Source: Porphyra umbilicalis
Taxonomy: Eukaryota; Rhodophyta; Bangiophyceae; Bangiales; Bangiaceae
Direction of reading: 5' to 3'
Assembly: GCA_002049455.2 (NCBI GenBank)
Contig: KV918986.1
Coordinates: forward strand, 42,730 to 106,729
Length of the DNA: 64,000 nucleotides
Below are positions 26,358 through 53,815 of the stretch, in pieces. The translations under genes and the position numbers were made by a program. Each line of letters starts with the position of its first letter. Position 1 is the first letter of the stretch. The notes under the pieces are model-generated. The model saw only the letters and a list, made by a program, of their open reading frames with translations, was not told the DNA's origin and searched no databases.

Positions 26358-26359
26358 TA

Positions 26360-27617: not shown

Positions 27618-27620
27618 TAA

Positions 27621-28515: not shown

Positions 28516-28595
28516 TAAAGGCCAGGGAACTGCTCCTCAGTTTCCAGTTTACAACATGATATCGAGCAGTTCATCCAAGTATCGAGAAATCCATA

Positions 28596-31450: not shown

Positions 31451-31530
31451 GGTAGGTTTTGCGTCGTCGTTTTCAGCGCGGGTGGTTGGGACGACTTTTT
31501 TTCCCCCCCCCACCGGTCTTGGGCGGCGCT

Positions 31531-33855
31531 ATGTCGTTAGCGATCGGGGGGGGGGAGGCGGTGACGGCTTTGGCGGGCGCCGTCACTCTCGCCACTCACG
31601 CGTTTATTGCCGGGTGTCCGGTTGATGATCCTTGCTTACTGTTTGAATCGGCGGTGGCTGTCGTGCGGGCCAATGGCCGCGCTGCATTCGCCGGCTGTAA
31701 TGCCGAATTTGGGCCTGCGGACACGTCGGCGCGCCTTAGCGCGCCTCTAATCGGTCCGTCTTGCTCCCGACAATTTTCTGCACCCCCCTCCGCCGCGGTC
31801 GCGCCGCCTCTTCTGCGAGCCCCGCTGCTTGCGGGTGTGATCCCGTCCCGTGTCGTGGCGCCGCTGCGCCCCCCCGCCGCCCGTCATGGCGGGCGCCCGG
31901 TGCTCAGCACGGCCGGCGCTGCGCGGCGGGCGGTCGGTGCCGTTCTTACTGCTGGGCCTCCTCGGGGCGGGGTCCTTCTGGGCGACGCCGCCCCCCCCCC
32001 CCTCCGCGCCCCCCCTTCCGCCGCGGCCAGCCGCGCCGCTGCCCCCGATCGCCTCGTGGACGGATCGTCTTCGCCGTGACCGACGGCTGTCCCCGCCCAG
32101 CCGGGATTCTGCGCCTCCTTCGTCGGCGGCGAGCGGTGCGCCCCCTGCGGTGGCTGCTCTGGCGGCTGTGGATGGAGATCGGGCCGGCGCGTGGACCCTC
32201 GTCTCCCGGCGCCGGCGCCGTGGTGGCCGCGGGGCGCCGAACCCTGCCCCGGTGCGTTCTGCTGGCGTCCGCCGCGGCGGGGCGCCCCTCTCCCCTCGCA
32301 GCGCTGGTGTGGGTGCGTCCGCGCACGCGCCCTCCCTTGCCGTGGAGCGGCGTTCGTCTCCTGCCGGGACGGCGAACCGGCCAGCGCGAGCCGCCGCAGC
32401 TGTCGCGGCTCTTACGCGTGCCCGTCACGCCGACTCTTCGCTACCCGCTCTGCAGACGCTGTACGTTGCGGGCGTTTCTCGGGTCGCCCGCTCGCACAGC
32501 CTGCGGCGGTTGGTGGTAGACATCGTGGGCGTGGTCCCTGCCACCGTTGTCGATGTCGACCGCTTCGGCGCGACGGCGGCGGTGACGCTTCTGGCGTCGG
32601 CGATGGAGGCGTTCCGCGCGGGCCTGGCCAATCCCTCCCTCGCTGGCGTGTTGAGGGAGGTCGCGGTGGACGTTCCGTGGTTGCCCGCATTTTTGGGTAG
32701 CCGGCGGCCTGCCCAGCAGTCGGGGCCCGCCGCGGCGGCGGAGGCTGTGACGCTTTGCCATCGCCAGCTGCGCGCCGAATTGGAGCAGCTGGCGTTGCGC
32801 GAGGCGATGCCTCCACCCCTTTGCGCTGCTCTTCGGGCGCATATTGGCGCTCAAATCGCGCAGTGCGCCGACCAGACCGGTGCCCCGGCTCACGCCGCCG
32901 TCGTCGTCGACCGGGCCGCAGCGCGCGCCGCGCCGCGGCCCACTCCCGCTGCTCCTCTCCGCGAGGGTGTCGAACGACTGGGTGGCGAGCCACGTCACGG
33001 CGGTTGGCGGTGGCGGCAGCCGCACGACAAGACCAAAGGTCATCCTGGCGGCGCGGCGGCGCCGGCGGCGTCCGCGCGCTCGCCTCGTCCGTCGGCGACG
33101 CGTGCTCTTTCGGGCAGCGCTCCGCCTCTGGCAAGCGTGCGTGCCACCGACCGATCGCTCGGTCGTCCCGATGCGCGGGGGCTGCCGAAGCTTCCCCGGG
33201 CGGCCGTAGACCTGTTGTGGGCTTCGCCATTGGTGTGTGGATCCCCGACGTCGGGCGGGCGCTTTTCGCGCGGATGCGTGCTTCCGCTGCTGCCGGCGGC
33301 CGCCTGCCGACCCGCCCCAGCCGGGCCGACGGCGTCGACGCGTGCGACCCCGTCGGCGGCGCTTCCCGTGCATGTGAACGGGGCGGACGAGGCGCCGCCG
33401 AGCCGCGGGGGCCTCGGGCGCGCCCTCGTGGCGCCCCCGTGTACCCCCACTGTCGCTACCGCTGGCGGCGGTGGGATCCCGAGCCTGCGAGTTCCGATGG
33501 GGACGGCCCTCCCCTCCCTGCCGCCGTCCCTCCGCCGCCCCACCTGGTCGTTGCTCGCTGCGAATTCACTGGCGGCTGCAGTGCCTCTGCCGGGCGGTGG
33601 CTTGCTTTTCCGCCCCCGCCACTCGCGCGCTTCCGCGCGACAGCGGCGCCCGCCGGCGCCGCTGCTGGTGGGGGGAGGCGCGCGGCCGCGCACCCGCGAT
33701 GCCGTGGCGGCCGCTTCGGCGGCAGCCGCCGAGGCCCGCCAGACTCTTGGAGCCCTGCCCCAGGTGCGCTGTGGCCGTCGGACCCGGCCGCGGATGAAGC
33801 GGCGGGCGGGGCGGCCACTTCCAACCCGGACGTATGCGACGCAACGCGAAAGTAG
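31531..33855 (+). pseudogene. ORF1 of retrotransposon copy 1 (frameshifted)
   Basis: Starts at the ATG equivalent to copy 2's 43856 (MSLAIGGGEAVTALAGAVTL) and ends TSNPDVCDATRK-TAG at 33853-33855. The frame changes at a C-rich run near 31990 and again near 33755. The central segment (LQTLYVAGVSRVARSHSLRR ... VVDVDRFGATAAVTLLASA) alternates strand- and helix-like stretches, recalling the RRM-like domain of LINE ORF1 proteins; that is an inference. By that analogy it would bind the element RNA. The ATG for ORF2 that overlaps the ORF1 stop in copy 2 has been lost here by mutation. Confidence 0.6.
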
Positions 33856-34981
33856 TCACAAATCCGCTTCCCCCCCCCCCACCCGCCGCCGTTTCCTCCG
33901 AGCGGCGGCTGGCCGGGCACGGCGCGCTTTTTCTGATCCCCGGCACCCACCTCTGCCCCGCGTGCACTTCCAACCCCCTCCCCCCGCTTCGACCCCCCCC
34001 TCTTCCCCCGCTTCTTCCTCCCCCCCGCGCCGCCCCACCACTTCCATGGCGGCGCGGCCGAATCGACGTGCTGCGGCGCCTGGTGCTTCCGCCGACCGCT
34101 CCCCTGGCGGGGCTAGTCTGCCTGCTACGGGCACTACGGTGGGCGAGCGAGCTGCGGTCGGCGCGCCAGCGAGTATGGGCGCGCCCTCGGTGTGCCCGGT
34201 GGACGCGTGCGGCGTCGTGCTTCCCTGCGCAATCGGCGACACCCCCGGCCTCAGGCACCTTCGCCGCGCGCACGTCATTGCGGACGTGCCCGCGGTGACG
34301 GTCGCTGATCTCGGCTTGGCGGGGTGTGCGTGGTGCGACGCCCCTTCCCCACCGCACGCCCGCGGACAGGCCGCTTGCCCTTGGTGGCGCACGAAGCGGT
34401 TTGCCGCGCCATCCCGGGATGGAATCTGCGACTTGCCGCCCCCCGTGCTTCGGCCGGCGGGCGCCCCGGTTCTCCCTCGCCGGGTTCGGCGGGGGACGCG
34501 GACGCGTCCGCGCAAGCCGAAACGCAAAATTTGTTCGGGTCGGATCGGGCGGCGTGGGAGCGAGCGCGCCGCGGCTTCTTGGCCGCCGTCCCCGCAACGG
34601 CGGATGGCTGAGCGCCCTTTGTAGCGTCGTCGGCGCGCACTCTTCCCTCGCCCCCCCCCGCTCTGCGCCGCTCCTGGCGGCTGCTGGGCACCGACGCTCT
34701 TGCGTGGGCGTCTCGCGCCCCCGTCCAACCCCTTGCGTGGCTGTGGGTTCTTCTTCTTCCTACCCTTCTGCTTACCACCCTGCCCCGGCCGGAGCGGCTT
34801 TGGACGCGCTGCTGTCGTACGCGGCGCGCGCCGCCGCCATTTCTGCCGGCGATTTTGCCGCGGCGCTGGAGGACCGAGACGTGGGCGTGTGGCGCTCGGC
34901 CCCCGGACGGGCCGGGACAAGATCCCGTCCCCAAAACCTGGGCGGCGGCGCCCCCGGGACGCCCGCACAAGTGACCGCGGC

Positions 34982-35694
34982 CAGGCCCTACCATACGTAT
35001 ATTGTGAGTAGGTGTTTTAACTGGTGTAAGTGTCTGACCTCCCGTACCCGCAGGCAACAAGGCGGCTGGCACCCACACCCAACTCAACAATTGAGTAGGT
35101 AGCCGTGAGTATCTATCAATTCTGACCGACAGCAGAGTCAAAGCCAGAAGAGCGCGCCATTCAAATACAATTATGTCGTTTCACCTCCTCTAAGTACCAG
35201 TTGATCTTTGGACTTGATTTGAATACTGCAACGGTTTTAGTTGGGGTGAATTCTCCGAACCGTGGTGTGCTCGCCGAAGGGCGCCCGTTAGAATTCTCAC
35301 GCGAGCCGTTGACAACGCCGCAAACAGGATGACTCACGTGACGGAACGGATCCGTCATGCTCGGGAAAAATAGGCGCTTGGCGCTGCGAAAGGTCGGCAG
35401 CTTTTCCAAGTCAGTCAATTTCGAAATTGATTCGTACCCGTGTTTTCCAGGTATATTTCGTATTGATACACATGAAGATAAACGAGGCCAGCACTCGTAC
35501 TCGGATTCAACGATTTGTATACAGTGCGTTCTCGTTATAAGAGAATCGTTTAGAAGAGAATATGGGTCGCGAGTCTTCCATTCCAGTCCATATTAGCCAC
35601 TTTTTTCATATTGAGCTGAATCAGCTGTCTCTGGTAACGAGAACGCACTGTATACCGTACCCGAAGCTGAAAACAATACTTATAACAGGGCCTG
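34982..35694. mobile_element. hAT-like MITE inserted in copy 1
   Basis: A 713-bp A/T-richer insert with ends CAGGCCCT and AGGGCCTG, flanked by a perfect 8-bp duplication ACCGCGGC (34974-34981 and 35695-35702). Copy 2 shows the empty site at 47305-47312. An 8-bp duplication and CAG-initial ends fit the hAT superfamily. No transposase frame. Confidence 0.85.
35522..35650. mobile_element. 129-bp TA-inserting MITE nested in the hAT-like MITE
   Basis: Perfect 16-bp inverted ends CAGTGCGTTCTCGTTA, flanked on both sides by TA (TATA on each flank). The CAG-initial end with TCTCGTTA resembles pogo/Tigger-type elements; superfamily is inferred. No coding capacity. Confidence 0.8.
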
Positions 35695-37739
35695 ACCGCG
35701 GCGCAGCGGCGCGCACTGCACCTTGTTCGTGCCGGCTGGCTGAGCGCGGCGGCGCGCGCGCTGACAGCCGCTCCGGTAGCTCCTCGCATGCCGGCAGTGT
35801 GGGACAAGGCCCGTAGCCTTCACCCCCCGCCCGGCCGGGCCTTGCTTCGCTTGGGTCGGTCGAAGGGGCGTTCCGTGCCGAGCTGGAGGCGGCGGCCAAC
35901 TTTGGCCGTGCCTTTGGAGTGCCAAGCGTGCTTCCTCGCGAGGCCGTCGGCGACTTCATCCGCCGCGCGCCGCGTGGCTCTGCCCCCGATCCCTCGGGCC
36001 TCCGCATGGAGCATCTGCGGGCCCTTGAAGACGAGGGTCGGCTACGCTTGCTGGGGTTGTGTGTCTTCTTGCGGGCGAGGAGGCGGAGCGTCTGGTTCCC
36101 CCTTTGGCGGCGCATGCGCTGGCAGGGGCGGACTTGCTGCTGCTGTGCAAGCCGGGGGGGCTCCACGTGGACGGTCTCCCCCGGCTGCGTCCCATTGAGA
36201 TGCCTGAGGTGCTGAGAAAGTTGGCGGCTTCTTCCCTGGCTGCGCGCTTACTCGCGCCGCTGCAAATGAGGGTGAGGGTGTCCAACCCTTGTGAGCGGGT
36301 TGTCCACGAGGTCACCGCCGAGCTCGTGCACAATCCGCTTGCCACCCTTCTGCAACTTGACTTCAAGAAATCCTTTAACCTCGTGTCCCTCGCGGCGGCG
36401 GTGGCGTATTTGACGCGCGCCTTCCCCCTGTTGCGGCAGTACCTCTCGTCGGTCTACTCGGGGTGCTCCCCGCCGCGAGTGTACGGCTGGGCGGACGGCG
36501 ACTCGACGTCGGGCGCCGCGGGCGGCCTGCTTGCATGGCGTTGGCTTGCGGTCGAGCGGGGCATGCAGCAAGGCGACCCGCTCGGCCCGCTCATCCACGC
36601 CGCGGCGATGCACCTCGCCGTGCTGCGCCCGGCTGCCGCGCACCCCACGGCGGTCGTGCGCGCCGTGCACGACGATGTCGTCGTCGTCGCCGCGCTCGCG
36701 GACCTGCCGGCGGTGCTCACGACCGCGGCTGCGGCGGGCACGGCGGTGGATGCGGAGCTCGCCCCCGCCAATTGCGCCAGGTGGTCCCCCACCGGCGCGC
36801 CCGCCCCCGCCGGTTGGCCGGCCCGGTGGAACGCGGATGGTGTTCGCCAGTTTTCCATCGCTCTCGGGTCGAATGACTTTGTGGCGGCGGAGGTCGACGC
36901 GTTGGCGGCGGATCACGGCCATCTCATGGCCGCCATTTTCGAACTCCCGCGCGCCGGGCTCCAGTCCCAGCTCCTGCATATACGCCTGTGCGCGGGCCCG
37001 CAGCCGAACTATTGGCTGCCGGCCCTTCTGCTTGTGTGGGGCGCTCGGCTGGCGGCGTCCGTCGACCGCACTGCCCAAGGCGCCCTGCGGCGTCTCCTCA
37101 CAGACGCCCGCGGCCACCGTCGCCCATCCCTCTGCCGCTGGCGCAGCCACGCCGCCACCCTGGTTCTGTGTGGGGGTGGTAGCCACCGACGTGCTGCCGG
37201 CAGTGCCCGCGGAGGCGTTTGTGGTGCGGCTGGTGCCCGGGGCGGCTGTTGCCGCCGCCTCGAATCTCTTGGACGCCGGCGGACCCCGGCACCAGGCCAG
37301 CCAGCCGATAGCCGCTTTTAGCGCTCCGCCTTGGCGCGACCCCGTCTTTTCCCCTGGCCAATCCCCCCTTCCCCCCACCCAACCTCTCGGTCCTAACCGG
37401 CGGCACATCGCCGTGTGCGGTCCGGGTGGACATCGGTCTGGGCGGACGGGTGGCGGAGGTCGGCCCTGTGGCTGTGGCGGGGCCTGCACGAGAGACGCAG
37501 TCGGGGGCGGCGTCTCGCGTGGCCGCTGGCGCAGCCGCGGCAGCAGCCGGTGGTGCGGCCGCGCTGCCGGCGCCAGCATGTACAGCGGCGCAGACGACGC
37601 CCGTGGTGGCGGGCCCGGCGCAGTCGCCACACGACGCCGTGCGTGGCGACGCCGCGGCGCCCGGCGTGGGCGGCTCGGCGCCTCTTCCCCGCCCGCCCCT
37701 CCCTGCACACCCCCCCCCCACCTCTGCTTGCTTCCGCCC

Positions 37740-40640
37740 TCGCACGACGGGAGCACGGCGCACCGGCGCCTGTCGTCGCACGAGGCGGCGCCGGCGCCGG
37801 CGCCGGCGTTGGCGTCGGCGCCGGTGGCGGCGGCGCCGGCAACGGTCCCGTCGGCAGAAGTGCCGCCGGCGGCGACGCCGACGACGGCGCCACCGGCGGT
37901 GGCGTCGCCCGCGGCGGCGGCGGTGGCGGCCGCCGCGGCGGCGATGGCGGCGGTGGCGCCGCCGCCAGCGGCGGCGCCGCTGGCGGTGACCTCGTGCGCG
38001 ACGGCGGCGGCCCCAGCAGCGGCGGCGGCGGTCGCGTCGACTGCAGCAGCGCCGGCGACGCCGCCGGCGACGGCGCCGCTGGAGAAGGCGTCGGCCACGG
38101 TGGCGGCGGCGTCGGCGGCGGCGACGGCGGTGACGGCGGCGGCGGCGGCGGCGCCTCGGGCCGCGGCCCGCGGCGCGGGGGCGCCTCTGGCCGGCAGCCC
38201 CGTCGGCGCTGGTCACTCTTATGACGGCGGCATGGCCGCGCCACCGTGCGTGTTTCAGACGACGTCAGCGTCGTCCGGCGTCGCGGCGGCGGCCGCCCAG
38301 TAAGCGGCCGCCTTGCCAGCCGGGGCGGATCTGCCGGCGGCGCCTCAGCTCTGTGAGGGCCGTTTTGGTGTTGCCGGGACCGTTGCGCCGTCCGCCGGCG
38401 CCGCGGTCGCCAACTCGACCTGGGTGCCCCACGCCACCGGCGGCGCAGATGGCGCTGCCGCCAGAGCTCTGACGCTGGCGGAGCCCGCGGCAGCCGCGCT
38501 TCAAGCCGGCTGCGGACCGGCAGCTGACGCCGCGCTCACCGTCGCTACTCCCGCGGTTTTGGGGCGGTGCTCAGTCGCGGCGGCGGCCGCCGCCGCGTGT
38601 AAGTCACCCCTCCCCCCTCCACCACTCCCGTTTCGCTAGCCGAGAGGTCGAGCCCGCGGCGCCTGGGCGGGCACGCTTCGCCAGAGAACAACGCGGTGGA
38701 AGCAGCGGCGGTGGCGCCGGCGCTCGCGGCGAACGCTGCGGCGGTAGCACCGCCGTCGCCGTGCGGGGCCGCCGACGTGTGCGTGCCGATCGTGGCGCCC
38801 GGCGGCGCCGCAACGGCCGATCTCCCCCCCCCCCCCCCTGCCCTTTCCGCCCGCCCCCTCCCTACTATCTCACGCCAAGCGAACGTCGCAGCCGCGCTTT
38901 TTGTCGCGCAAGACGGCGTGGATGCCGGCGCAAGCGTTGGAGCCGTCGGTGGCGGCGGCGGCGGCGGCGGCGGTCGCGGTGGCCGCAGTGGCGGCAGCGG
39001 CGCCGCCGGCGACGGCGCCACTGGCGGTGGCATCGCCCGCGACGGCGGCGGCGACTCCGATGGCGTCCGTGGTCTTGTCGGAAGCCGCGCCATCGGTGGC
39101 GCCGCCGGCGACGGCGCCATCGGTGGTGGCGTCGCCCGCAGCGGCAGCGGCGGCGGCGGCATCGTTGGTCGTGTCGCAAACAGTGCCGCCGGCGGTGCCG
39201 CTGAAGACGACACCGCCGGCGGTGGCGTCGCCCGCGACGGCGTCGGCGGCGTCGGCGGCGGCGGTGGTCGTGGCGGCAGTCGTTCTGCCGGTGGCGCCGC
39301 CGGCGACGGCGCCGCCGGCAATGCCTTCGCCCGCGGCGGCGGCCTCGGAGGCAGCGGCGGATGCAGTGGCGGCGGCCACGGCGCCGCCGGCGACGGCGCC
39401 GGCGGCGGTGGCGTCGCCCGCCGCGGCGGCGGCGGCGGCGGCGGCGTTGGTCGTATCGGCATACATGCCGCCGTCCGCGCCGCCGGCGACGATGCTGCCG
39501 GCGAGGGCGCCGCCCGCGGCGGCGTCGGCGGCATTGGCAGCGGCAGTGGTCGTGTCGAAAGGCGTTTCGCCGGTGGCGCCGCTGGCGCCGGCGCCGCCGG
39601 CGATGCCGTCGCCTGCGGCAGCATCCGCGGAGGCAGCGGCGAATTCGGTAGCGGCCGCCACGGCGCCGCTGGCGACGGCGCCGCCAGTGGTGGCGTCGCC
39701 CGCCGCGGCGGCAGCGGCGGCGGCGGCTTTGGATGTCTCGCCAACAGTGTCGCCGGCGGCGCCGCCGGCGACGGCGCCGCCGGCGGAGGCGTTGCCGCCG
39801 GCGGTGCCGCCGGAGACGACACCGCCGGCGATGGCGTCGCCCGCGACGGCGTCGGCGGCGCCGCCGGCGACGGCGCCGCCGGCGGTGGCGTTGCACGCAG
39901 CGGCGGCGGCGGTGCCGGCAGCGTTGGTCGTCTCGCCAACAGTGTCGCCGCCGGCGACGCCGGCGATGGCGCCGCCGACGGTGGCGTCGCCCGCGGCGGC
40001 GGCGGCGGCGGAGAACGCAGTAGCGTCGGCGACGGCGCCGCTGGAGACGGCGCCGCCGGCTCCGGCAACGCCCGCGCCGGCGGCGGTGGCGGCGGCGGTG
40101 CTGGTTGTGATGGCATCAATGCCGCCGGCGGCGCCGCCGGCGACGGCGTTGCCGGCAGTGGCGGCGCCCGCGGCGGCATTGGCGGCGTCGATGGCGGTGG
40201 TGGTCGTGTCGGCAGCCGTGCCGCCGGTGGCAACGCCGGCGACAGCGCCGCCGGCGGTGCCGATGCTCGCGGCGGCGGCGGTGGCGGCAGCGGCGGCGGC
40301 GGATATGGTCGCGGTAACCACGGGGTGTTGGGATTCGAAAATTATACCACTCAACTACAGCCAAAATACCGGAGTGAATGGTCCTGAGAAGTTCAAACTT
40401 ATCGTCCAACACAGGGCCGCCGGCGACTGCGCCCAAGGCGTTGGTGTCGCCCGCAGCGGCGGCGGCGGCGGAGGCGGCGTTGATCGTGACGACAGCAGTG
40501 CCGCCGCCGGCGCCGCCGGCGACGGCGCCGCTTGCGGGGGCACCGCCTGCGACGGCGGCGGCAGCGGCGGCGGCTGCGGGGGTGGCCCTGGCGGCAACGG
40601 CCGCGCCTGGTGACTCGGCGCCTGCCGATCACCGCTCGCT
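37740..40640 (+). repeat. Expanded Ala/Gly/Pro-coding minisatellite, copy 1
   Basis: About 2.9 kb of imperfect GCC/GGC-based repeats. One frame reads as degenerate units of roughly 30-35 residues of the type PPATAPPAVASPAAAAAAAA followed by LVVS. Other frames read poly-Gly or poly-Arg/His, so frame matters. It sits between the reverse transcriptase and the position where the endonuclease should be. It is interrupted by an A/T-richer patch at 40321-40417. Confidence 0.75.
40321..40417 (-). other. A/T-richer patch with tRNA-like 5' half inside the minisatellite
   Basis: About 97 bp quite unlike the surrounding GCC repeats. On the minus strand it contains GGCTGTAGTTGAGTGGTATA, close to the acceptor/D-arm of His-, Asp- or Gly-type tRNAs, then AATCCCAAC, which could be an anticodon loop (CCC). 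The 3' half of a tRNA is missing. GTGTTGG and CCAACAC near its two ends form a short inverted repeat. It may be filler DNA from break repair, possibly of organelle origin. Confidence 0.35.
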
Positions 40641-41215
40641 GCCCCAACTCCCGGGCCTCCTCCTGCCAGAAGCCGAGCGTGTGATGCAGCCGCGTCGGTC
40701 GGCTCGCGTTGCGGCGGCGGCAGGGGTGGCGGCCAAGGCGGCGGAAGCGGCGTTGGCGGCCGCGGCCACCCGCACCGAGTGTGTCGAGCCGGACGGCCGA
40801 GAGAAGCCGCCGCTGCCGGACGCGAGGCCCGGGTGGGCTGACCCCGGTCAGCCGCCCGCCCGGCCCGCCACCGCGGCCGTGCAGACGCCGCTGCCCGCGG
40901 CTGCCGCCCCCTGGCGCACCGACCTCCCTGTCCTTGTCGCCGCCATTGCGGCGCACTCCGCCACGCCGTCATCGGAAGCGCTGGGGGCGCAACCGCCCCG
41001 CGGCCGCGCCCGCCCCGTCCGTGCTGCCACTGCCCCTGCCGCCCGCGCGGCCGCGACGCGCTGCCCGCCCTATCAAAAAAAGGCCCTCGGACGTAACGAG
41101 GGGCGGCTGCCCGCGGCACTGGGGTGGCGCCGAATGATGTCCGCGCCCGCAGCAAGTTCGCAGCGCAACCACTCCTTCCCTGCGCATGCCGCCCGGCGCG
41201 CCCGCCTTCATCCGT

Positions 41216-43775
41216 ACCGTGTATTGGGCCGTCACGGCCGTCCCGCGCAAGTCCGTAGACACCACCCGTCTACAGAAACCAAAAACGCGACTGGCGCGCA
41301 TTCTTGCGGCCGCTCGGCTGCGGCGCTTGCATGTCAAGCAGCTTGCACGGTGTCGACACATTGCCGTGAGCGTGGCAAATCGCGCTGCCACCGTGTATTG
41401 GGCTGCCACGGCCGTCCCGCGCAAGTCCGTAGACACCACCTGTCTACAGAAACCCAAAACGCGACTTGCCAGCATTCTTGCGGCCGCTGGGCCGCGACGC
41501 TTGCATGTCGTGCAGCCTGCACCGTGTCGAAACATTGCCGGGAGCGTGGCAAATCGCGCAACCACCGTGTATTGGGCCGTCACGGCCGTCTCGCGAAAGT
41601 CGGTAGACACCACCTGTCTACAGAAACCAAAAACGCGACTGGCGCGCATTCTTGCGGCAGCTCGGCCGCGGCGCTTGCATGTCGAGCAGCTTGCACCGTG
41701 ACGACACATTGCCGTGATCGTGGCAAATCGCGCAGCCACCGTGTATTGGGCCGTCACGTCCGTCCCGCGCAAGTCCGTAGACACCACCTGTCTACAGAAA
41801 CCAAAAACGCGACTTGCCCACGTTCTTGCGGCTGCTCGTCCGCGGCTCTTGCATGTCGTGCAGCCTGCACCGTGTCGAAGCACCGCCAGGAGCGTGGGAA
41901 ATCGCGCAACCACCGTGTATTGGGCCGTCACGGCCGTCCCGCGCAAGTCCGTAGACACCACCTGTCTACAGAAACCAAAAACGCGACTGGCGCGCATTCT
42001 TGCGGCCGCTCGGCCGCGGCGCTTGCATGCGGTGCAGCTTGCACCGTGTCGACAAATAGCCGGGAGCGTGGCAAATCGCGCAGCCACCGTGTATTGGGCC
42101 GTCACGGCCGTCCCGCGCAAGTCCGTAGACACCACCTGTCTACAGAAACCAAAAACGCGACTGGCGCGCATTCTTGCGGCAGCTCGGCCGCGGCGCTTGC
42201 ATGTCGAGCAGCTTGCACCGTGTCGACACATCAATGTGAGCGCGGCAAATCGCGCAGCCACCGGGTATTGGGCCGTCATGGCCGTCCCGCGCAAGTCCGT
42301 AGACACCACCAGTCTGCAGAAACCAAAAACGCGACTGGCGCGCATTCTTGCGGCCGCTGGGCCGCGGCGCTTGCATCTCGAGCAGCTTGCACCGTGTCGA
42401 ATCATTGCCGGGAGCGTGGCAAATCGCGCAACCACCGTGTATTGGGCCGTCACGGGCGTCCCGCGCAAGTCCGTAGACACTACCAGTCTGCTGAAACCAA
42501 AAACGCGACTGGCGCGCATTCTTGCGGCAGCTCGGCCGCGGCGCTTGCATGTCGAGCAGCTTGCACCGTGACGACACATTGCCGTGAGCGTGGCAAATCG
42601 CGCAGCCACCGTGTATTGGTCCGTCACGGCCGTCCCGCGCAAGTCCGTAGACACCACCTGTCTCCAGAAACCAAAAACACGACTTGCCCACGTTCTTGCG
42701 GCTGCTCGTCCGCGGCTCTTGCATGTCGTGCAGCCTGCACCGTGTCGAAACATTGCCGGGAGCGTGGCAAATCGCGCAACCACCGTGTATTGGGCCGTCA
42801 CGGCCGTCCCGCGCAAGTCCGTAGACACCACCTGTCTACAGAAACCAAAAACGCGACTTGCCCGCATTCTTGCGGCCGCTCGGCCGCGGCGCTTGCATGT
42901 CGAGCAGCTTGCACCGTGTCGACACATTAATGTGAGCGTGGCAAATCGCGCAGCCTCCGTGTATTGGGCTGTCACGGCCGTCCCGCGCAAGTCCGTAGAC
43001 ACCACCTGTCTACAGAAACCAAAAACGCGACTGGCGCGCATTCTTGCGGCAGCTCGGCCGCGGCGCTTGCATGTCGAGCAGCTTGCACCGTGACGACACA
43101 TTGCCGTGAGCGTGGCAAATCGCGCAGCCACCGTGTAATGGGCCGTCACGGCCGTCCCGCGCAAGTCCGTAGACACCACCTGTCTACAGAAACCAAAAAC
43201 GCGACTGGCGCGCATTCTTGCGGCTGCTCGTCCGCGGCTCTTGCATGTCGTGCAGCCTGCACCATGTCGATACATTGCCGGGAGCGTGGCAAATCGCGCA
43301 ACCACCGTGTATGGGGCCGTCCCGGCCGTCCCGCGCAAGTCGGTAGACACCACCTGTCTACAGAAACCAAAAACGCGACTGGCGCGCATTCTTGCGGCAG
43401 CTCGGCCGCGGCGCTTGCATGTCGAGCAGCTTGCACCGTGACGACACATTGCCGTGAGCGTGGGAAATCGCGCATCCACCGTGTATTGGGCTGTCACGGC
43501 CGTCCCGCGCAAGTCCGTAGACACCACCTGTCTACAGAAACCAAAAACGCGACTTGCCCACGTTCTTGCGGCTGCTCGTCCGCGGCTCTTGCATGTCGTG
43601 CAGCCTGCACTGTGTCGAAACATTGCCGGGAGCGTGGCAAATCGCGCAACCACCGTGTATTGGGCCGTCACGGCCGTCCCGCGCAAGTCCGTAGACACCA
43701 CCTGTCTACAGAAACCAAAAACGCGACTTGCCCGCATTCTTGCGGCCGCTCGGCCGCGGCGCTTGCGTGTCGTGC
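41216..43775 (+). repeat. 174-bp satellite, block B (about 15 units)
   Basis: Continuous head-to-tail units starting at ACCGTGTATTGG and ending at GTCGTGC where copy 2 begins. Units fall into several variants, for example GGCTGCTCGTCCGCGGCTCT against GGCCGCTCGGCCGCGGCG, and GACACATTGCCGTGAG against GAAACATTGCCGGGAG. The variants recur in a partly ordered way. Confidence 0.95.
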
Positions 43776-43855
43776 GAGGTACGTTTTTCGCTTTTCTTTT
43801 TCTTACGGGTGCTTGCGACGCCCTTTCTTCCCCCCCCCCGGTCTTGGTCGGCGCT

Positions 43856-46185
43856 ATGTCGTCCGCGATCGGGGGGGGGGAGGCGGTGACCGCTTTGGCG
43901 GGCGCCGTCACCCTCGCCGTTAACGCGTTTATTGCCGGGTTTCCGGTCGATGATCCCTGCTTACTGTTTGAATCAGCGGTGGCTGTGGTGCGGGCCAATG
44001 GCCGCGCTGCATTCGCCGGCTGTAATGCCGAATTTGGGCCTGCGGACTCGTCGGCGCGCGTTAGCGCGCCTCTAATCGGTCCGTCTTGCTCCCGACAATT
44101 TTCTGCACCCCCCCCCGCCGCGGTTGCGCCACGTCTCGTGCGCGCCCCGGTCCTTGCCGGTGTGATCCCGCCCGGTGTCGTGGCGCCGCTGCGCCCCCCC
44201 GCTGCCCGTGGCGGCGGGCGCCCGGTGCTCGGTACGGCCGGCGCTGCGCGGCGGGCGGTCGGTGCCGTTTCTACTGCTGGGTCTCCTCGGGGCGGGGTCC
44301 TGCTGGGCGACCCGGCCCCCCCTCCCCTTCCCGCTTCCCCCCCCCGCCGCGTCCAGCCGCGACGCTGCCCCCGATCGCCTCGTGGGCGGATCGTCTTCGC
44401 CGTGACCGACGGCTGTCCCCGCGCAGCCGGGGTTCTGCGCCTTCTTCGTCGGCGGCGAGCGGTGCGCCCCCCGCGGTGGCTGCTCTGGCGGCTGCGGATG
44501 GCGATCGGGCTGGCGCGTGGACCCTCGTCTCCCGGCGCCGACGCCGCAGGGGCCGCGGGGCCCCGAACCCTGCCCCGGTGCGCTCTGCCGCCGCCCCCCG
44601 CGGCGGGGCGCCCCTCTACCCTCGCCGCGCTGGTGCAGATGCGTCCCCTCGCGCGCCCTCCTCGGCCGCGGAGCGGCGTTCGTCTCCTGCCGGGACGGCG
44701 GGCCGGCCAGCGCGAGCCGCCGCAGCTGTCGCGGCGCTCACGCGTGCCCGACACGCCGGCTCCCCGCTACTCGCTCTGCAGACGCTGTACGTTGCGGGCG
44801 TTTCTCGGGACGCCCGCTCGCATAGCCTGCGCCGGTTTGTGGCGGACGCCGTGGGCGTGGCCCCCGCCACCGTCGTCGATGTCGACCGCTTCGGCGCGAC
44901 GGCGGCGGTGACGCTTCTGGCGTCAGCAACTCAGGCGTTTCGGGCGGGCCTGGACGATCCCTCCCTCGCTGGCGTGCTGTGGGAGGTCGCGGTGGACGTT
45001 TCCTGGTCGCCCAAATTTTTGGGGAGCCGCCGGCGTGCCCAGCTGTCGGGGCCCGCCGCGGCGGCGGAGGCTGTGGCGCTTTGCCAACGCCGGCTGCGCG
45101 CCAAATTGGAGCAGCTGGCGTTGCGGGAGGCGATGCCTCCCCCCCTTTGTGCTGCTCTTCGGGCGCATATTGGCGGTCAAATCGCGCAGTGCGCTGACCG
45201 AACGGGTGCCCCGGCCCATGCCGCCGTCGTCGTGAACCGGGCCGCTGCGCGCGCCACGCCGCGGCCCACCCCCGCTGCTCGTTTTCGCGGGGGTGCCGAA
45301 CGACCGGCGGGGGCGCCACTTCACGGCGGTTGGCGGGGGCGGCAGGCGCACGCCGAGACCACCGGTCACCCTGGCGGCGCGGCGGCGCCGGCGGCGTCGG
45401 CGCGCTCACCTCGTATGTCGGTGGCGCACGCTCGTTCGGGCAGCGCTCCGCCTCTGGCGAGCGTGCGGGCCGCCGACCGATTGCTCGGTCGCCCCGGTGC
45501 GAGGGGGCTTCCGATTCTTCCCCGGGCGGCCGTGGACCTGTTGTGGGCCTCCCCATTGGTTGGGGGATGCCCGACGTCGGGCGTGCACGCTTCGCGCGGA
45601 CCCGTGCTCCCCCTGCTGCCGGCGGCCGCCTGCCGACCCGCCCCAGCTGGGCCAAGGGCGTCGCCGCGTGCAACTCACTCGGCGGCGGTTCTTGTCCCTG
45701 TGAACGGGGCGGATGAGACGCCACCGCGCCGCGGGGGCCTTGGGCGCGCCCTTGTGGCGCCCCCGTGTACCCCCGCGGTCGCTACCGCTGGCGGCGGTGG
45801 GATCCTGAGCCGGCGGGTTTGGAGGGGGGCGGCCGCCCCCTCCCTTCAACCGTCCTTTCCCCGCCTTCCTCGGTCGTTGCTTGCCGCCACCGCCCTGGCG
45901 GCTGAAGTGCCCCTGCCAGGCGGTGGCTTGCTTTTCCGCCTCCGCCTCTCGCGCGCTGCCGCGCGACAGCGGCGCCCGCCGGCGCCGCTGTTGGTGGGAG
46001 GAGGCACGCGGCCGCGCACCCGTGCTGCGGTGGCGGCCGCTGCGGCGGCAGCCGCCGAGGCCCGGCGGGACTCGTTGACCCCTGCCGCTGCTGCGCTGGG
46101 GCCGTCGGACCCGGCCGCGGACGGCGCGGCGGGCGAGGCGGCCCCTTTTATCCCTAACGTGAGCGACGCAACGCAAAATGAGTGA
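43856..46185 (+). pseudogene. ORF1 of retrotransposon copy 2 (one frameshift)
   Basis: Begins at an ATG after a T-, C- and G-run-rich leader (SSAIGGGEAVTALAGAVTLA) and ends in VSDATQNE-TGA at 46183-46185. One frame change falls in the C-rich run near 44310-44350, close to where copy 1 also shifts, so homopolymer slippage (biological or in sequencing) is likely. About 770 codons if joined. The centre (LQTLYVAGVSRDARSHSLRR ... VVDVDRFGATAAVTLLASA) is the best conserved part between the two copies and looks RRM-like. The rest is Pro/Ala/Arg-rich. Its stop overlaps the ORF2 start by 8 nt. Confidence 0.65.
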
Positions 46186-49100
46186 CAAATCCGCTTCTCC
46201 CCCTTCCCCCCCCCGCCGCCGTTCGCTCCGAGCGGCGGCTGGCCGGGCGCGGCGCGCTTTATCTGATCCTCGGAACCCACCCCTGCCCCGCTCGCACTCC
46301 CCACCCCCTCCCCCCGCTTCTACCCACCCCTCTTCTCCTGATTCTTCCTCCCCCCGGCGCCGCCCCTCCCCTTCCATGGCGGCGCGGCCGAATCGACGTG
46401 CTGCGGCGCCGGCTGCCCCCGCCGACCGCCCCCCTGGCGGAGCCGGTCGCCCGGCTGCCGGCCCTACGGCGGGCGAGCGGGCTGAGGTCGGCGCGCCAGC
46501 GCGCACGGGCGCGCCCTCGGTGTGCCCGGTGGACGCGTGCGGCGTCGTGCTGCCCTCCGCCATCGGCGACACCCCCGGCCTGAGGCACCTTCGCCGCGCG
46601 CACGTCATTGCGGACGTGCCCGCGGCGACGGTTGCTGATCTCGGCTTGGCGGGGTGTGGGTGGTGCGACGCCCCCTTCCCCACCGCACGCCCGCGGACGG
46701 GTCGCTCCCCCTTGGTGGCGCACGAAGCGGTTTGCCGGGCAAATCCGCGGTGGAACCTGCGTCTTGCCGCACCCCGCACCCCGGCCGGCGGGCGCCCTGG
46801 TTCCCCCTCGCCAGGCTCGGCGGGGGACGCGGACGCGTCCGCGCACGCCGAAACGCCGAATTTGTTCGGGTCGGATCGGGCGGCGTGGGAGCGAGCGCGC
46901 CGCGTCTTCTTGGCGGCCGTCCCCGCAACGGCGGATGGTTGGGCGCCTTTCGTCGCGTCGTCGGCGCGCACTCTTCCCTCGCCCCCCCCCGCTCTGCGCC
47001 GCTCCTGGCGGCTGCTGGGCGCCGACGCTCTTGCGTGGGCGCTTCGCGCCCCCGACCAGCCACTCGCGTGGCTGTGGGTTCTTCTTCTTCCTACTCTCCT
47101 GCTGCACCACCCTGCCCCGGCCGGAGCGGCTTTGCACGCGCCGCTGACGTACGCGGCGCGCGCCGCCGCCATTTTTGACGGCGATTTTGCCGCGGCGCTC
47201 GCGGATCGAGACGCGGGCGTGTGGCGGTCGGCCCCCGGACGGGCTGGGACAAGATCCCCCCCCAAGACCCGGGAGACGGCGTCCCCGGGACGCCCGCACG
47301 CGTGACGGCGGCGCAGCGGCGCGCCCTGCGCCTTGTTTGTGCCGGCCGGCTGGGTGCGGCCGCACGCGCGCTGACGGCGGCTCCGGTAGCCCCCCGCACG
47401 CCGGCGGTTTGGGACAAGGCGCGTAGCCTTTTCCCCCCCGCACGGCCGGGCCTCGCCTCCCTCGCCACTGTCGAGGCGGCGTTCCCCGCCGAATTGGCGG
47501 CGGCCGGCAACTTCGGGCGCAGCTCGGGCGTGCCGCGGGTGCTCCGCCGCGAGGCCGTCGGCGAGGCCATCCGCCGCGCGCCGCGCGGCTCTGCCCCCGG
47601 ACCCTCGGGCCTCCGCATGGAGCATCTGCGGGCCCTTGGGGACGAGGGGCAGGCTGCGCTTGCTGGGGTTGTCCGTCTTCTTGCGGGCGAGGAGGCGGAG
47701 CGTCTGGTTCCCCCCTTGGCGGCGCATGCGCTGGCAGGGGCGGACTTGCTGCTGCTGTGCAAGCCGGGGGGGCTTGACGTGGACGGTCTCCCCCGGCTGC
47801 GCCCTATTGGGATGCCTGAGGTGCTGAGAAAGTTGGCCGCTTCTTCGCTTGCCGGCACTGTGCGCGCCGCGGCGGCGCGCTTACTCGCGCCGCTGCAAAT
47901 GGGGGTGGGGGTGTCCAACCCCTGCGAGCGGGTGGTCCACGAGGTCAACGCCGAACTCGTGCACAACCCGCTCGCCGCCCTTCTGCAACTTGACTTTAAG
48001 AACGCTTTCAACCTCGTTTCCCTCGCGGCGGCGGTGGCGTATTTGACGCGCGCCTTCCCCCTGCTGCGGCACTACCTCTCGTCGATCTACTCGAGGTGCT
48101 CCCCGCCGCGCGTGTACGGTTGGTCGGACGGCGACTCGGCGCCTGGCGCCGCGGGCGGCCTGCGTCCGCGGCGTTGGTTGGCGGTCGAGCGGGGCGTGCA
48201 GCAAGGCGACCCGCTCGGCCCGCTTATCCACGCCGCGGCGATGCACCTCGCCGTGCTGCGCCTGGCTGCCGCGCACCCCTCGGCCGTCGTGCGCGCCGTG
48301 CACGACGACGTCGTCGTCGTCGCCGCGCTCGCGGACCTGCCGGCGGTGCTTACGACCGCGGCTGCGGCGGGTGCGGCGGTGGATGCGGAGCTCGCACCAG
48401 CCAAGTGCGCCGGGTGGTCCCCCACCGGCGCGCCCGCCCCCGCCGGGTGGCCGGCCCGGTGGAACGCCGAAGGTGTTCGGCAGTTTTCTATCCCTCTCGG
48501 AACGAATGACTTCGTGGCGGCGGCGGTCGACACGTTGGCAGCCGATCACAACCGTCTGACGGCGGCCATTGTCGACCTCCCTCGCGCTGAGCTCCAGGCA
48601 CAGCTCTTGCTTCTACGCCTGTGCGCGGGCCCGCAGCCGAACTATTAGCTGCGGGCCCTCCCGCTTGTGTGGGGCGCTCGGCTGGCGGCGTCTGTCGACC
48701 GTGCCGCCCAAGGCGCCCTGCGACGTCTCGTCACAGACGCCCGCGACCCCCCGGCGGTGGTGGACGCCCTCCTGGACCGCGCGGCGCTGCCGCTGTCGCA
48801 CGGCGGCCTGGGCATAGGGGGTCGGACGGCGGTCGTCCCCGCCGCGGCGTTGGCGTCCCGCGTCGATGCGCTGCGCGCGGGGCGACTCTACTCGCCTGTG
48901 CGTGCGGCGGTTGCGGACTCCCTCGCCGCGCTCGACGGGGACGCCCCCACCGGCGGCGCCCTCGCGCCGCCGTCTTTGGACCGGCTGCGCCCTGGCGGCG
49001 GTCGCAGTCCGCCCCCCCCCGCCGCCAGACCACCCCCACGCCCGCCCGGGGTGGCCGCCTTTGTGCCGGCGCCGGGGGCGTCGTCGGGGGCGGCTAACGG

Positions 49101-52100
49101 CGGCGCGGCGCTTCCAGTCGTCCCCGCCGCGCTCCCCGCCGCTGAGGCGTCCCCGACGGCGGCGGGCGAGGTCAGTGATTCAATGGATTTTGGGCCGCCC
49201 GCCGTCGACAAATCGCGGACGGCCGGCATCGGGCGCGAGCTTCGCTTGCCGTCGTCTGCTACACTTCCCCCGCCCCCCCCCCCCAAACCCCCCACCCCCG
49301 CAGCGCGCGGCGGCCGTCGCCCGGTCCCGCATCCCCTGTTGCTTCTGCTGCGGTTCGGCCCGGCGCCGCCGGGGCCGCTGTCACGCTCGTCCCCCCCCCC
49401 CCCCTCACATCCCTAGTGCGTCTCCCGGCGGGTGCTGCTTCTCGGCGAGGCGGCGGGGATGCCGCCGCCCCCGCGTTACCTTCCCGCCCCGTCGACACCA
49501 GGGCCGACTTCTCAAGCCCGCCTGGCCGTCTCGCCGCGGCCACAGCCGCCCATCTCTCTGCTGCTGGCGCAGCCACGCTGCCGCCCTGGTTCTGTGGCGG
49601 GGCGGCAGCCACCGACGCGCTGCCGGCGGTGCCCGCCGAGGCGTTCGTGGTGCGGCCGGCGCCCGGGGCGGCTGCCGCCGCAGCCTCGGCTCGCTTGGAC
49701 GCCGGCAGACCCCGGCGCCCGGCAAGCCTGCCGACAACCGCTGTCGGCGCGCCGTCTTGGCGCGACGCCGCCTCTTCCCCTGCCCCCCCCCCCCCCCCCG
49801 CCAAACCCCGCGGTCCGCGCGGCCGGCCCTGCGGCGATTGCGGTCCGGGACGACTTTGGTCCGGGCGGTCGGGCGGCGGCTGTCAAAGCTGTGGCGGCGG
49901 CGGGGACCGGATGCACGACGGCGGCGGAAGAGGCGCCTCGCGTGGCCGCCGGCGCAACCGCCGCAGCAGGCGATGGCACGGCCGCGCTGCCGGCGTGCGC
50001 CTGGGCAGCGGCGTGCACGCCGCCCGTCGCGGCGGGCCCGGCAGAGTTGCTCGACGACAACGTGTGCGACGACGCCGCGGCGCACGGCGTGGGCGGCTTG
50101 GCGGCGGCGCCGCCGGCGATGGCGCCGCCAGCCACGGCGACGCCCGCAAGGGCGGCGGCCGGGACGGCGGCGGCGGTCGCGTCGACAGCAGCGACGGCGG
50201 CGGCACCGCCGGCGCCGGCGCCGCCGGCGTTGGCGTCTCCCGCGGCGACGGCAGCGGCGGCGGTGCCGCCGGCGCGGGCGGCGCCCCCGCCAGCGCCGGT
50301 TCAGGCACCACAGGCGGTGGCGTCGCCCGCGCCGCCGGCGGCGGCGCCGGCGGTGGCGGTTGTCACATCGGCAGCAGTGGCGCCGCCGGCGCCGCCGGCG
50401 ACGTCGCCGCCGGCGGTGGCGGCGCCCGCGACAGCGGCGGCGGCGGCGGCGGTGGCGGCGGTGGCGGTTGCGGCGCCTGGGGCCGCGACCAGCGGCGCGG
50501 GGGCGCCTTCGGCCGGCCGCCCCGTCGGCGCTGGTCACTTGTCCGGCCGCGGGGTGGCCGCACGACCGTCGATGGTGCGGACGACGTCAGCGTCGTCCGG
50601 CATCGCGGCGGCGGCCGCCCAATCAGCGGCCGCCGTGCCAGCCGGGGCGGTTACGCCGGCGTCGCCACCGCCCTGTGCGGGCAGTTTCGGTGTTTCCGGG
50701 GCTGTTGCGCCGCCGGCCGGCGCCGCCGACGGCGCCGCGGCCCGGGTGCCCCCCACGACCGGCGGCGCTGCCGGCGCTGCCGCCAGCGCTCTGACGCTGG
50801 CGGAGCCAGCGGCAGCCGCGCTTCGTGCTCGCGGCGGACCGGTAGCTGACGCCGCGCTCGCCGTTGCTGCGCCCGCGGTTGTGGGGCGGTGGTCGGCGGC
50901 GGCAGCCGCCGCCGCCGCGATTGAGTCCCCCCCCCCCCCCTCCACCCCTTCCTTCGCGCCGACCGGGCGCTCGAGCCTACGGCGCCTGGTCGGGCTCGCA
51001 ACGTCCGCGTACGACGCGGCGGCAGCACCGGCGGGGGCGCCGGCGCTCGCGGCCGACGCCGCGATGGTGGCACCGACGTCGCGGCGCGCGGCCGCCGCCG
51101 TGCGCGTGCCGAACGCGGCTATTGGCGGCGCCGCGACGGCCGAGCCCTCGCCTCCCCCCCCAGCCGCCCCCGCCTCCCCCCCCCCCCCTCTCCCGCACGT
51201 TGGGAGCACAGCGCAGCCGCGCGTTTGGTCGTCCCAGGCGCCGGTGGCGGCGCCGGCGGCGGCTATGGTGGCGGCGGCAGCGGCGGCGGCGGCGACGCCG
51301 CCGCCGGCGATGGCGCCCCCAACGGTTGCGTCACCCGCGACGGCGGGGGCGGTGGCGGTGCCGGCGGCGGTCACGTCGGCAGCACGGGCGCCGGCGGCGT
51401 CGCCGAAGACGGCGCCGCCGGCGATGCCGTCGCCCGCGGCCGCGACAGCGGGGGCCGCCGCGGCGGCGGCGGTGGCGGCGGCTGCGCCGCCGACGACGAC
51501 GACGTTGCTTGTGTCGGCGGCGGCGGCGGCGGCAGCAGCGGCGGCGGCGGCACGCCGGCCGCCAGCAACGGCGGCGGCGACAGCGGCGTCGCCGGCGATG
51601 GCGGCAGCGGCGGCTGCCGCGGCGGCGGTATCGTCGGCAGCACGAGCGCCGGCGGCGCCGCCGGCGAAGTTGCCGCCGGCGAGGCCGTCACCTACGGCGG
51701 CGGCGGCGGCTGCGGCGGCGGTGGCGGCGTCGGCGGTGCCGGCGGCGACCGCGGCGGTGCCGCCAACGTCGGCGCCGCCGGCATTGGCGTTGCCCGCGAC
51801 GGCGGCAGCCGCGGCAGCGGGGGTGGCGGACGCATCCGCAGTACTGGTCCCGGCGGCGCCACCGGAGACGGCACCGCCGGCAGGGGCGTCAGCGGCGTCG
51901 TCCGCGCCGGCGCCACTGGCGTTGGCGCCGCCGGCAGTGGCGCCGCCGGCGGCGGCGGCGGAGACGGCGGTGACGGCGGCGGCCGCGGCGGCGCCGCCAT
52001 CGTCGGCGCCGCCAGCATTGGCGTCGCCCGCGACGGCGGCAGCCGCGGCGGTGGGGGTGGCGGACGAATCCGCAGCACTGGACCTGCCGGCGTTGCCGGC

Positions 52101-53691
52101 ACCGGCACCGCCGGCGGTGGCTTCGGCGGCGCCGTCAGCGACGGCGCCGCTGGCGTCGACGCCGCCGGCGGTGGCGCCGCCCGCGGCGGCGGCGGGGATG
52201 GCGGCGGCGCTGGTCGTGGCGATGGCGGCGGCGGCGGCGCCTGGGGCCTCGTCGGCCGCTTCCTCTCTCTCGCCGTCCTCGCCACCGGTCGTTCCCCGGA
52301 CCGAATGCGCGCGGGCGGCGCAGCCGCGCCGGTTGCCGCGCGTTGCGGCGGCGGCCGGGGTGGCGGCGGCGGCGGCGGCAGCGGCGCCGGCGGCCGCAGC
52401 CACCCGCACCGTCTGGGTTGGACCGGACGGTCCCGAGCTGCCGCCACCGCCGGACGCGTGGCCCGAGTTTGCTGACCCCGGTCCGCCACCCGCCCGCCCC
52501 GCCGCCGCGGACGTGCCGACGCCGCTGCCCGCGGCCGCCGCCTCCTGGCGCACCGACCTGCTCGTCCTTGTCGCCGCCGTCGCGGCGCACTCCGCCGCGC
52601 CGCCATCGGGGGCGCTGTGGGCGCCACCGCCCCGCGGCCGCGCCCGCCCCGCCCCTGCTGCCCCCGCCCCTGACGCCCGCGCGGCCGCAGCGGACTGCCC
52701 CCCCCACCAAGAACAGGCCCTTGGCCACACCGGGGGGGGGATGTCCGCGGCGCTGACTTGGCGCCGGCTGCTGTCGGCACCCGCCGCAGTTACGCAGCGC
52801 GAGCTCTCCCTCCCCGCCCACGCCGCCCGGCGCGCCCGCCTTTACGCCGGCCTGTCGGGGTGGGCGCGGACGGGGCTGGCGGCGGTGCAGGGCGGGCGGG
52901 CTGCCCTGTGGCTCACCGCGGTCCCGTCCGACCGCGGTGGCCGGGGGCACATCCCCGGCTCGGCCATGCGCGTGGCGGCGCGCCTCTGGCTGGGCGCCCC
53001 CCCGCGACCGGACCCTCCGCGCCCGCGCTGCGCCTGCGGTGCTCCGGCCGACCCGGCTGGCCGCCACTTCCTCTCCGCCTGTCGCGCCCAGGTGGCGCGG
53101 CGCACCGCAGTGCACCACCACATTGTGGCGCTCGTCGCGGCGGCGCTGCGCCGCGCCCCGGCGTGGCGGGAGGTGGGCGTGGAGGTCGGCCTGGACGGGT
53201 CCGGCGGGGACCTGCGGCCGGACGTGCGCGCGACCGCGGCGGCCACGGCCGCTGTCACCTGGTGTGACGTTTCGGTCGCGTGGCCGTGGCCTGACGCGGT
53301 CGCGGCGCGGGTGCGCACGTCGCCTCTGCGGGCGGTCGCGGCGGCCGAGCGCGAGGCGGCCAAGCGGGCCGCCTACGTGCCGGCCTTGCCCACGACGGAC
53401 CCCCCCCACGCCTTCACCCCTCTGGTGCGGGAGGCGCTGGGCCGCGTTGGTCCCGCGACCGACGCGTGGCTGAAGGCCGCGCTTGCTGGACCGCAGCTTG
53501 CGGCGGTTCGTGCGGGCTTCTGTTGGACGTCTCGGTCGCGCTCTGGCGTTCACTTACGTGGGCGGTCGCAGGCGGTTACGCCGCTTGCACCACCCCAGAG
53601 CGCGCGTTGGATGCGACCGCTGACCTGGGATCGACATCGGCTGACGCGTTGGCTTGGCGGGGGGGGGACTCTGGGGTTCCACATTTTCTGA
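46178..53691 (+). pseudogene. ORF2 of retrotransposon copy 2: zinc fingers, reverse transcriptase, giant linker, endonuclease
   Basis: Start ATGAGTGAC at 46178 overlaps the ORF1 stop. A Pro/Arg-rich N-terminus is followed by a C2H2 finger (from 46522: VCPVDACGVVLP, RHLRRAH) and a CCHC-like finger (CGWC...HEAVC). A frameshift in the C8 run near 47253 moves into the frame that stays open to 53691 except for TAG at 48646-48648 and 49414-49416. Reverse transcriptase: PRGSAPGPSGLRMEHL, LDFKNAFN (47989-48012), VQQGDPLGPL, VHDD (48298-48309), LAPAKCAGWSP. The expanded linker fills 49880-52330. The C-terminal end has a CCHC cluster (CACGAPADPAGRHFLSAC, from 53029) and a restriction-like endonuclease (RPDV 53215-53226, then TWCDVSVAW with Asp at 53266). 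About 2,500 codons, far above the usual 1,000-1,300 of R2/CRE ORFs, mostly because of the linker. Confidence 0.82.
49880..52330 (+). repeat. Expanded Ala/Gly/Pro-coding minisatellite, copy 2
   Basis: About 2.4 kb of imperfect GCC/GGC repeats in frame with both the reverse transcriptase and the endonuclease, reading as Ala/Pro/Val segments (PPAVAAPATAAAAAAVAAVA). Unit boundaries are blurred but similar phrases recur every 30-35 codons. Sequence and arrangement differ from copy 1 although flanking coding parts align well, showing rapid turnover. Confidence 0.75.
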
Positions 53692-53815
53692 GGGGGGCTA
53701 CTGGTCCGCATGCTGACAGTAGTTCAATTGCTTGTCGAATTGGAGAGTAGCGGTAAATAGCACCGCACTAGTGAGTCAGAGGGAGCTTATCCCTAGGCTA
53801 AGCCACCCAATTAAA

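Follow-up and report, generated by a model that had tools for sequence, protein, structure and literature searches.

The 64-kb stretch of Porphyra umbilicalis DNA analysed here (contig KV918986.1, positions 42,730 to 106,729 of the forward strand; hereafter the window) carries two related elements, E1 and E2, which lie in one orientation between arrays of a 174-bp satellite, sat1. We suggest that they very probably represent a family of non-long-terminal-repeat (non-LTR) retrotransposons of the restriction-like endonuclease (RLE) type, which inserts at one site of the satellite unit by target-primed reverse transcription. The satellite specificity of this family is well supported by the junctions of its copies across the genome, and its relatives are found in a second satellite, 5S ribosomal DNA (rDNA), tRNA genes and a dispersed sequence. 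That a single genome holds such a range of targets is, in our opinion, the most interesting part of the finding.

In the window, sat1 forms three arrays detected with Tandem Repeats Finder (TRF; Table 1), whose units were numbered with position 1 placed at GCGGCGCTTG. The original prediction, made from the sequence alone, described two elements of about 10 kb, belonging to one family and inserted in the same orientation into the satellite. Family and orientation were confirmed, while E1 proved not to be a full element: it stops short of the nuclease domain and of the family 3' end, and the satellite resumes at its right edge at unit position 71 (window position 41216), versus position 127 for E2, which ends in ...CCCAATTAAAA with one A ambiguous. 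On the 5' side, E1 leaves sat1 at unit position 10 and E2 at positions 11–20, both after GCGGCGCTTG. The copies have clearly diverged, as predicted, with 88% identity across the first 3.5 kb. E1 also contains a 706-bp insert, perhaps a small non-autonomous element, part of which resembles, by eye, the sequence beside a copy on contig C162 (locus L006). No Rfam family reached its cut-off anywhere in the window, and ARAGORN gave no prediction there. Derivation of sat1 from 5S rDNA was considered and dropped because 83 of 300 shuffles matched equally well.

The genome (83.8 Mb, 665 contigs, given below as C with a number) has ten Pfam PF00504 matches to light-harvesting proteins. For the two of these proteins compared with PDB, the top match was entry 7y5e, from the red alga Porphyridium, which agrees with a red algal host, and genome size and GC content would be in line with Bangiales. 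The genome was searched with a 5'-region probe from E1, which gave 12 matches (two of just ~146 bp; the other ten were used), and with a 3'-end probe from E2, which gave 21 matches, the C20 and C172 rows being excluded from target claims. Mapping of the genomic junctions onto the satellite unit, suggested with the original prediction as its check, gave a uniform result: all five complete sat1-type 3' ends (E2, two on C260 and two on C119), distributed over three contigs, enter the satellite at position 127. Under independent random insertion, the chance of five such ends falling on one base of 174 is about 1e-9 by simple arithmetic. Four of the five intact 5' ends of the family (E1, E2, C260a, C119a) lie in sat1 arrays at positions 10–20, so that the predicted near coincidence of the E1 and E2 junctions extends to every in-array end within about ten bases. 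The fifth, on C297, lies outside any array, and the 40 nt preceding it match sat1 from position 156 (35/40). Seven of the ten long 5'-region matches adjoin a satellite: E1, E2 and the copies on C260 and C119 (sat1, 5' end intact), the copy on C113 (degenerate sat1, 5' end truncated), and those on C9 and C83 (the second satellite). The second C260 copy (L063, C260:85500-87000) is interrupted, by eye, by a copia-type-like element.

These junctions bear directly on the possibility that non-specific elements persist solely in satellite heterochromatin. Satellites tolerate insertions and long interspersed nuclear elements (LINEs) are, as generally known, common in heterochromatin, but such passive accumulation predicts scattered junctions and both orientations instead of one base (5/5) and one orientation, and the tRNA-Gly relatives described below also repeat identical junctions. 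We therefore consider this explanation highly improbable.

The alternative named in the original prediction was block duplication: one satellite insertion, together with its flanks, would have been copied into E1, E2 and the C260 and C119 copies. The copies are indeed few, satellites exchange and amplify, and element and flank identities are similar in size. However, the 5' flanks (two units, four copies) have only 0–1 common variants (of 2–38) and the 3' flanks (three units, five copies) 3–5 (of 13–32), no more than the right array yields when stretches are taken from it at random (means of 4.9 for 5' and 7.6 for 3' flanks). Homogenisation could erase common variants, and the C260a 5' flank has just two variants, so the test is limited for single pairs. 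E2 is nearest to C260a (98% in the reverse transcriptase, RT; 98.4% and 95.0% at the ends), whereas E1 and E2 have 88–89% identity (89% in RT), and diverged relatives occupy unrelated targets. Flanking variants give block duplication no support and the copy closest to E2 is on C260 rather than being E1, so this history appears unlikely, and insertion at a preferred satellite site remains the reading that we develop below.

From 5' to 3', E2 comprises an ORF1-like region (ORF, open reading frame), two zinc-finger-like motifs at the start of ORF2, RT, an extended low-complexity part rich in Ala and Pro, and finally the C-terminal motif stretch, with frame changes and stops present. The ORF1-like region gave no Pfam match in the scanned frame. 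The RT blocks are conserved in all seven aligned members, the xHDD motif being VHDD in E2 and FHDD in the other six, and the RVT_1 score is below the Pfam cut-off in three relatives. The C-terminal CxCG-H-C and RPD-X14-D...K motifs were found across the families, with broken copies as the exceptions; a Pfam search of the nuclease stretch gave no match. A profile of the seven RT domains gave two R2 chains and 8gh6, which we take to be R2Bm, as its top three PDB matches, all of them weak (E 0.013–0.027), followed by an unrelated entry at E 0.4; a single-sequence phmmer search of the E2 RT against PDB gave 0 hits. For apurinic/apyrimidinic endonuclease (APE), no Exo_endo_phos match was obtained in the scanned frames, which did not cover every frame and were in part broken. 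At the E2 5' end, the search for a ribozyme or other Rfam family gave just sub-threshold microRNA models. The group is likely of the RLE type because it combines the zinc-finger-like region, the RT, the C-terminal motif stretch, the absence of a detected APE and the weak R2 matches in PDB. Membership in Dualen was rejected since the scanned frames contain no APE domain, whereas Dualen has both APE and RLE domains according to the available part of PMC4640811.

Target-primed reverse transcription by the RLE protein is the likely mechanism. The element protein would bind the satellite and nick its bottom strand at unit position 126/127, as the fixed 3' junction suggests; the freed 3'-OH would then prime copying of the element RNA from its ...AATTAAAA end. 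The top strand would be cut 59–68 bp downstream, at positions 11–20 of the next unit, to judge from the 5' junctions. Staggered cuts of this kind would produce a long target duplication, and the junction geometry implies 59 bp (position 127 to 11) or 68 bp (to position 20). A layout of this type also appears to apply to the relatives, whose targets are a 164-bp satellite, 5S rDNA, tRNA genes and a dispersed sequence of ~82 bp.

Some upstream satellite may also be present at the 5' end of the RNA, where it could aid 5' joining; the 40 nt on C297 hint at this. A further hint comes from unit position 12. In the middle and right arrays, none of the 72 units has G there (A in 61, gap in 11), but G is present at the E2, C119a and C297 5' junctions, while C260a has a gap. 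From these two observations, the mobile RNA could carry some satellite. The same G was found in 3/3 scorable left-array units and 2/4 C113 units, which weakens it as a proof of element-borne satellite, and an old satellite variant is an equally possible source.

Diverged sister copies on C9 and C83 are located in a second satellite, sat2, with a 164-bp unit. The C9 copy has sat2 arrays on both sides and lacks the last ~40 nt of its 3' end; the copy at C83:222k has a sat2 array on its 5' side and an exact 49-bp sat2 piece on its 3' side, and a degenerate copy at C83:204k has sat2 on the 3' side. Homology of the two satellites is borderline: with the C9 form of sat2, 6 of 300 shuffles (8/300 in another run) were as good as the observed likeness, and with the C83 form 89 of 300. 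This likeness touches on another possible history, in which the element first entered one isolated site and the satellite arrays then expanded along with it or as its consequence. The C9 comparison and the C297 element, with its short satellite-like sequence and no array, would agree with such an origin, but the comparison with the C83 form does not rise above shuffles, and none of the listed element matches falls in the arrays on C149 and C48. We consider growth of the satellite from the element's target very unlikely.

Copies on C241 and C77 continue into 5S rDNA repeats. In the C241 case, an element 5' end is preceded by a complete 5S gene, the 5S-like stretch stopping ~7 nt past the gene, and the 5S spacer starts at an element 3' end that lies 91 bp ahead of the following 5S; the two ends are presumed to be those of one ~12-kb copy. 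The C77 copy is truncated at its 3' end, its nuclease match reaching only to residue 134 of 159, which leaves C241 as the single copy that defines the 5S site. The array on C241 (358-27494, on to 103876; G000) consists of ~634-bp units, and the 47 of 4277 candidate 5S matches that were scored are all on C241; C77 (L023) has a diverged 5S array too, and the 5S match listing is therefore incomplete.

Other relatives are associated with tRNA genes. On C210, where elements cluster with a spacing of ~8 kb, neighbouring copies have between them 58 bp of tRNA-Gly(CCC), covering the D-arm through the 3' end and alike in two instances, and in the two cluster starts examined (C210 and C481) the element comes after a complete tRNA-Gly. 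Head-to-tail clusters of ~8-kb elements with only tRNA pieces between them were seen at L064, L065 and L071 (C210, C57); each new insertion probably used the target as duplicated by the previous one. Partial tRNA-Ile sequences of 70 bp, or of ~31 bp in another form, adjoin copies on C57/C15, tRNA-Asp pieces those on C394/C271/C628 and a 46-bp tRNA-iMet piece those on C299/C50. The Ile, Asp and iMet identities were read from the anticodon loop and T arm, with Rfam tRNA support at L071 and L024 only and boundaries set by eye. One more family (D-family) uses a dispersed target of ~82 bp (L066, about 298-379), which has at least 40 genomic matches (40 of 103 candidates scored); an Rfam search of L066 gave no match to it. 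Matches to the nuclease stretch by itself number 93 in the genome, and the list of targets is therefore incomplete.

A common layout can be recognised in these families: the 3' end of the target, the element 5' end with a T-run, and the element 3' end located further upstream in the target. Read in this way, it implies long duplications, about 31–82 bp and about 210 bp for 5S. For those tRNA and 5S families that were examined, the start of the element lies a few nucleotides at most from the point where the RNA gene ends. A run of four or more T occurs no more than 31 nt from the start in all eight cases scored (Gly, Ile, Asp, iMet, sat1 E1, sat1 E2, sat2 C9 and sat2 C83). At tRNA-Gly and 5S, the target gene stays whole and is followed by a possible terminator because the element 3' end sits upstream in the target. 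We had also regarded GTACGTTTTT at the 5' end of the sat1 family as a relic of a 5S 3' end; this was dropped, as similar T-runs start the tRNA families.

In the RT tree of 29 rows (FastTree, midpoint-rooted with no outgroup, some rows being stitched from broken copies), the sat1 and sat2 families group together (0.995) and the 5S families come next (0.975), apart from the tRNA and ~82-bp families (1.0). Rows C162 and C110, to which no target is assigned, fall inside the satellite group. A switch from RNA-gene to satellite targets would fit this tree, its direction being our inference. One can suggest that a single RLE lineage split into families for tRNA genes, 5S rDNA, the ~82-bp sequence and two satellites under one insertion “grammar”: a start just past the target 3' end, a T-run that possibly ends RNA polymerase III transcription, duplication of a long 3' part of the target, and a gene left whole, as observed at tRNA-Gly and 5S. 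In this view, the satellite families would descend from a lineage using RNA genes. We put this broader proposal forward tentatively, with its probability somewhat short of even.

Several observations weigh against these interpretations. The copies are few, and many of them are broken. The original prediction of a family dedicated to the satellite is upheld by the fixed 3' junction and qualified by three of the ten long 5'-region copies (C297, C425 and C162), which are outside arrays; C425 and C162 are fragments with no intact ends, the 3' end of C425 being cut short. No sat1 copy has a clean target duplication: members of the presumed pairs show differences at several positions and resemble each other no more than neighbouring units do, and a deletion of ~106–115 bp in sat1 would give the same junction picture. 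The endonuclease fold is putative, a single-sequence AlphaFold2 model of the nuclease region having pLDDT 36. Finally, the 5S 3' boundaries disagree, 91 bp before 5S on C241 and ~338 bp on C77, and therefore we place less weight on the reading of one lineage with one grammar.

The E2 group resembles R2, R4, NeSL/Utopia, CRE and HERO in having an RT ahead of C-terminal CCHC and putative nuclease motifs, a zinc-finger-like N-terminus and a fixed 3' junction in repeats. It differs from the R2-type RLE elements in its satellite target (tRNA and 5S in relatives), the long implied duplications, and a length of ~10 kb with an ORF1-like region. The hallmark of R2 is insertion into 28S rDNA, while the copies studied here are in sat1 arrays and no Rfam family reached its cut-off in the window. 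CRE-type elements of telomeres and splice-leader genes (SLACS, MoTeR and, in the same clade, FoTeR) also occupy tandem repeats, but their targets differ. For R2-like ORFs, the available part of PMC3636483 describes a CCHC motif and a PD-(D/E)XK nuclease domain, and an exceptionally long target duplication is cited for the rotifer element R9 in the accessible text of PMC5035012.

The closest parallels are in Kojima and Jurka 2015 (PMC4640811), as far as its available part extends. The NeSL-related LIN families and NeSL-1_TV are RLE elements specific for tRNA-Arg, tRNA-Glu and tRNA-Pro; like the present group they have tRNA targets and relatives differing in target, but 5S rDNA and non-genic satellites are unmentioned as RLE targets in that part. 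YURE elements of Ciona, also RLE, are described there as occasionally inserted in a U2-derived satellite, whereas the five complete 3' ends of the sat1 family all fall on one base, and sat1 has neither an RNA family in the window nor a likeness to 5S, in contrast to a satellite derived from U2 genes. In the available part of PMC8091179, L1-CS of Cuscuta europaea occurs at preferred places in units of the satellite CUS-TR24, 91% of elements being satellite-associated; it belongs to the L1 lineage and has two preferred TTTTAA-like sites and 13–16 bp duplications, while the sat1 family is of the RLE type and uses one base. RLE elements with tRNA targets, occasional RLE insertion in a satellite and L1 preference for satellite sites are therefore already in print, as these accessible texts indicate. 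The literature searched, mostly without subscription papers, contained no report of an RLE family specific for 5S rDNA or strictly dedicated to a non-genic satellite, nor of the present element group in red algae.

Related elements with different targets represent a natural series in which the residues that choose the site in RLE retrotransposons may be found by comparison, which bears on DNA recognition by R2-like proteins and on their use as insertion tools. A satellite serving as a single-base-specific target suggests one way in which transposons occupy and mark satellite arrays, and the whole gene beside the element at tRNA-Gly and 5S suggests how such elements may spare the host.

Table 1. 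Coordinates of the sat1 arrays and of elements E1 and E2 in the window
Feature	Position	Strand	Description
Left sat1 array	30734..31438	+	~4 degenerate units; stops at E1 5' junction; TRF and sequence
Element E1	31451..41215	+	9.8 kb; 5' end complete, without endonuclease domain and 3' end; meets satellite position 71
Insert in E1	34985..35690	.	706 bp, not in E2
Middle sat1 array	41216..43766 (TRF call to 43772)	+	~14.7 units; separates E1 from E2
E2 5' junction stretch GTGTCGTGC	43767..43775	+	Satellite-like, G at unit position 12
Element E2	43776..53815	+	10.0 kb, intact at both ends; 3' end ...CCCAATTAAA(A), then satellite position 127
E2 5' terminal motif GGTACGTTTTTCG, T-runs	43778..43800	+	T-runs also start other families examined
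E2 ORF1-like region	43856..46185	+	MSSAIGGGEAV..., YVAGVSRDARSHSLRRF...; frame changes interrupt
E2 ORF2 N-terminal zinc-finger-like motifs	46523..46680	+	CPVDACGVVLPSAIGDTPGLRHLRRAH; CGWC...H...C; by eye
E2 reverse transcriptase domain	47179..48645	+	Pfam RVT_1 E=1.3e-8; alignment
E2 C-terminal CCHC and RPD-X14-D...K stretch	53026..53502	+	CxCG...H...C; restriction-like endonuclease by motif
E2 3' untranslated region	53692..53815	+	Ends in AATTAAAA
Right sat1 array	53816..64000	+	58.6 units, 95% matches (TRF); unit position 127 first, directly after E2

The left part of the window contains two 0.9-kb inverted repeats (318-1224 and 27620-28523), which are 93.6% alike and 26 kb apart. An ORF between them (11355-13391) has CxC5 and CxC6 domains, the latter just under the curated cut-off, and together with the repeats it perhaps forms a ~28-kb DNA transposon of the KDZ type; no target duplication was recognised by eye at the ends of this candidate. 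The same interval includes an oxysterol-binding protein domain (22402-24162; Pfam E=1.7e-75) and, at 26358-27619, two adjacent 315-bp sequences, each tandemly duplicated at ~99% identity.

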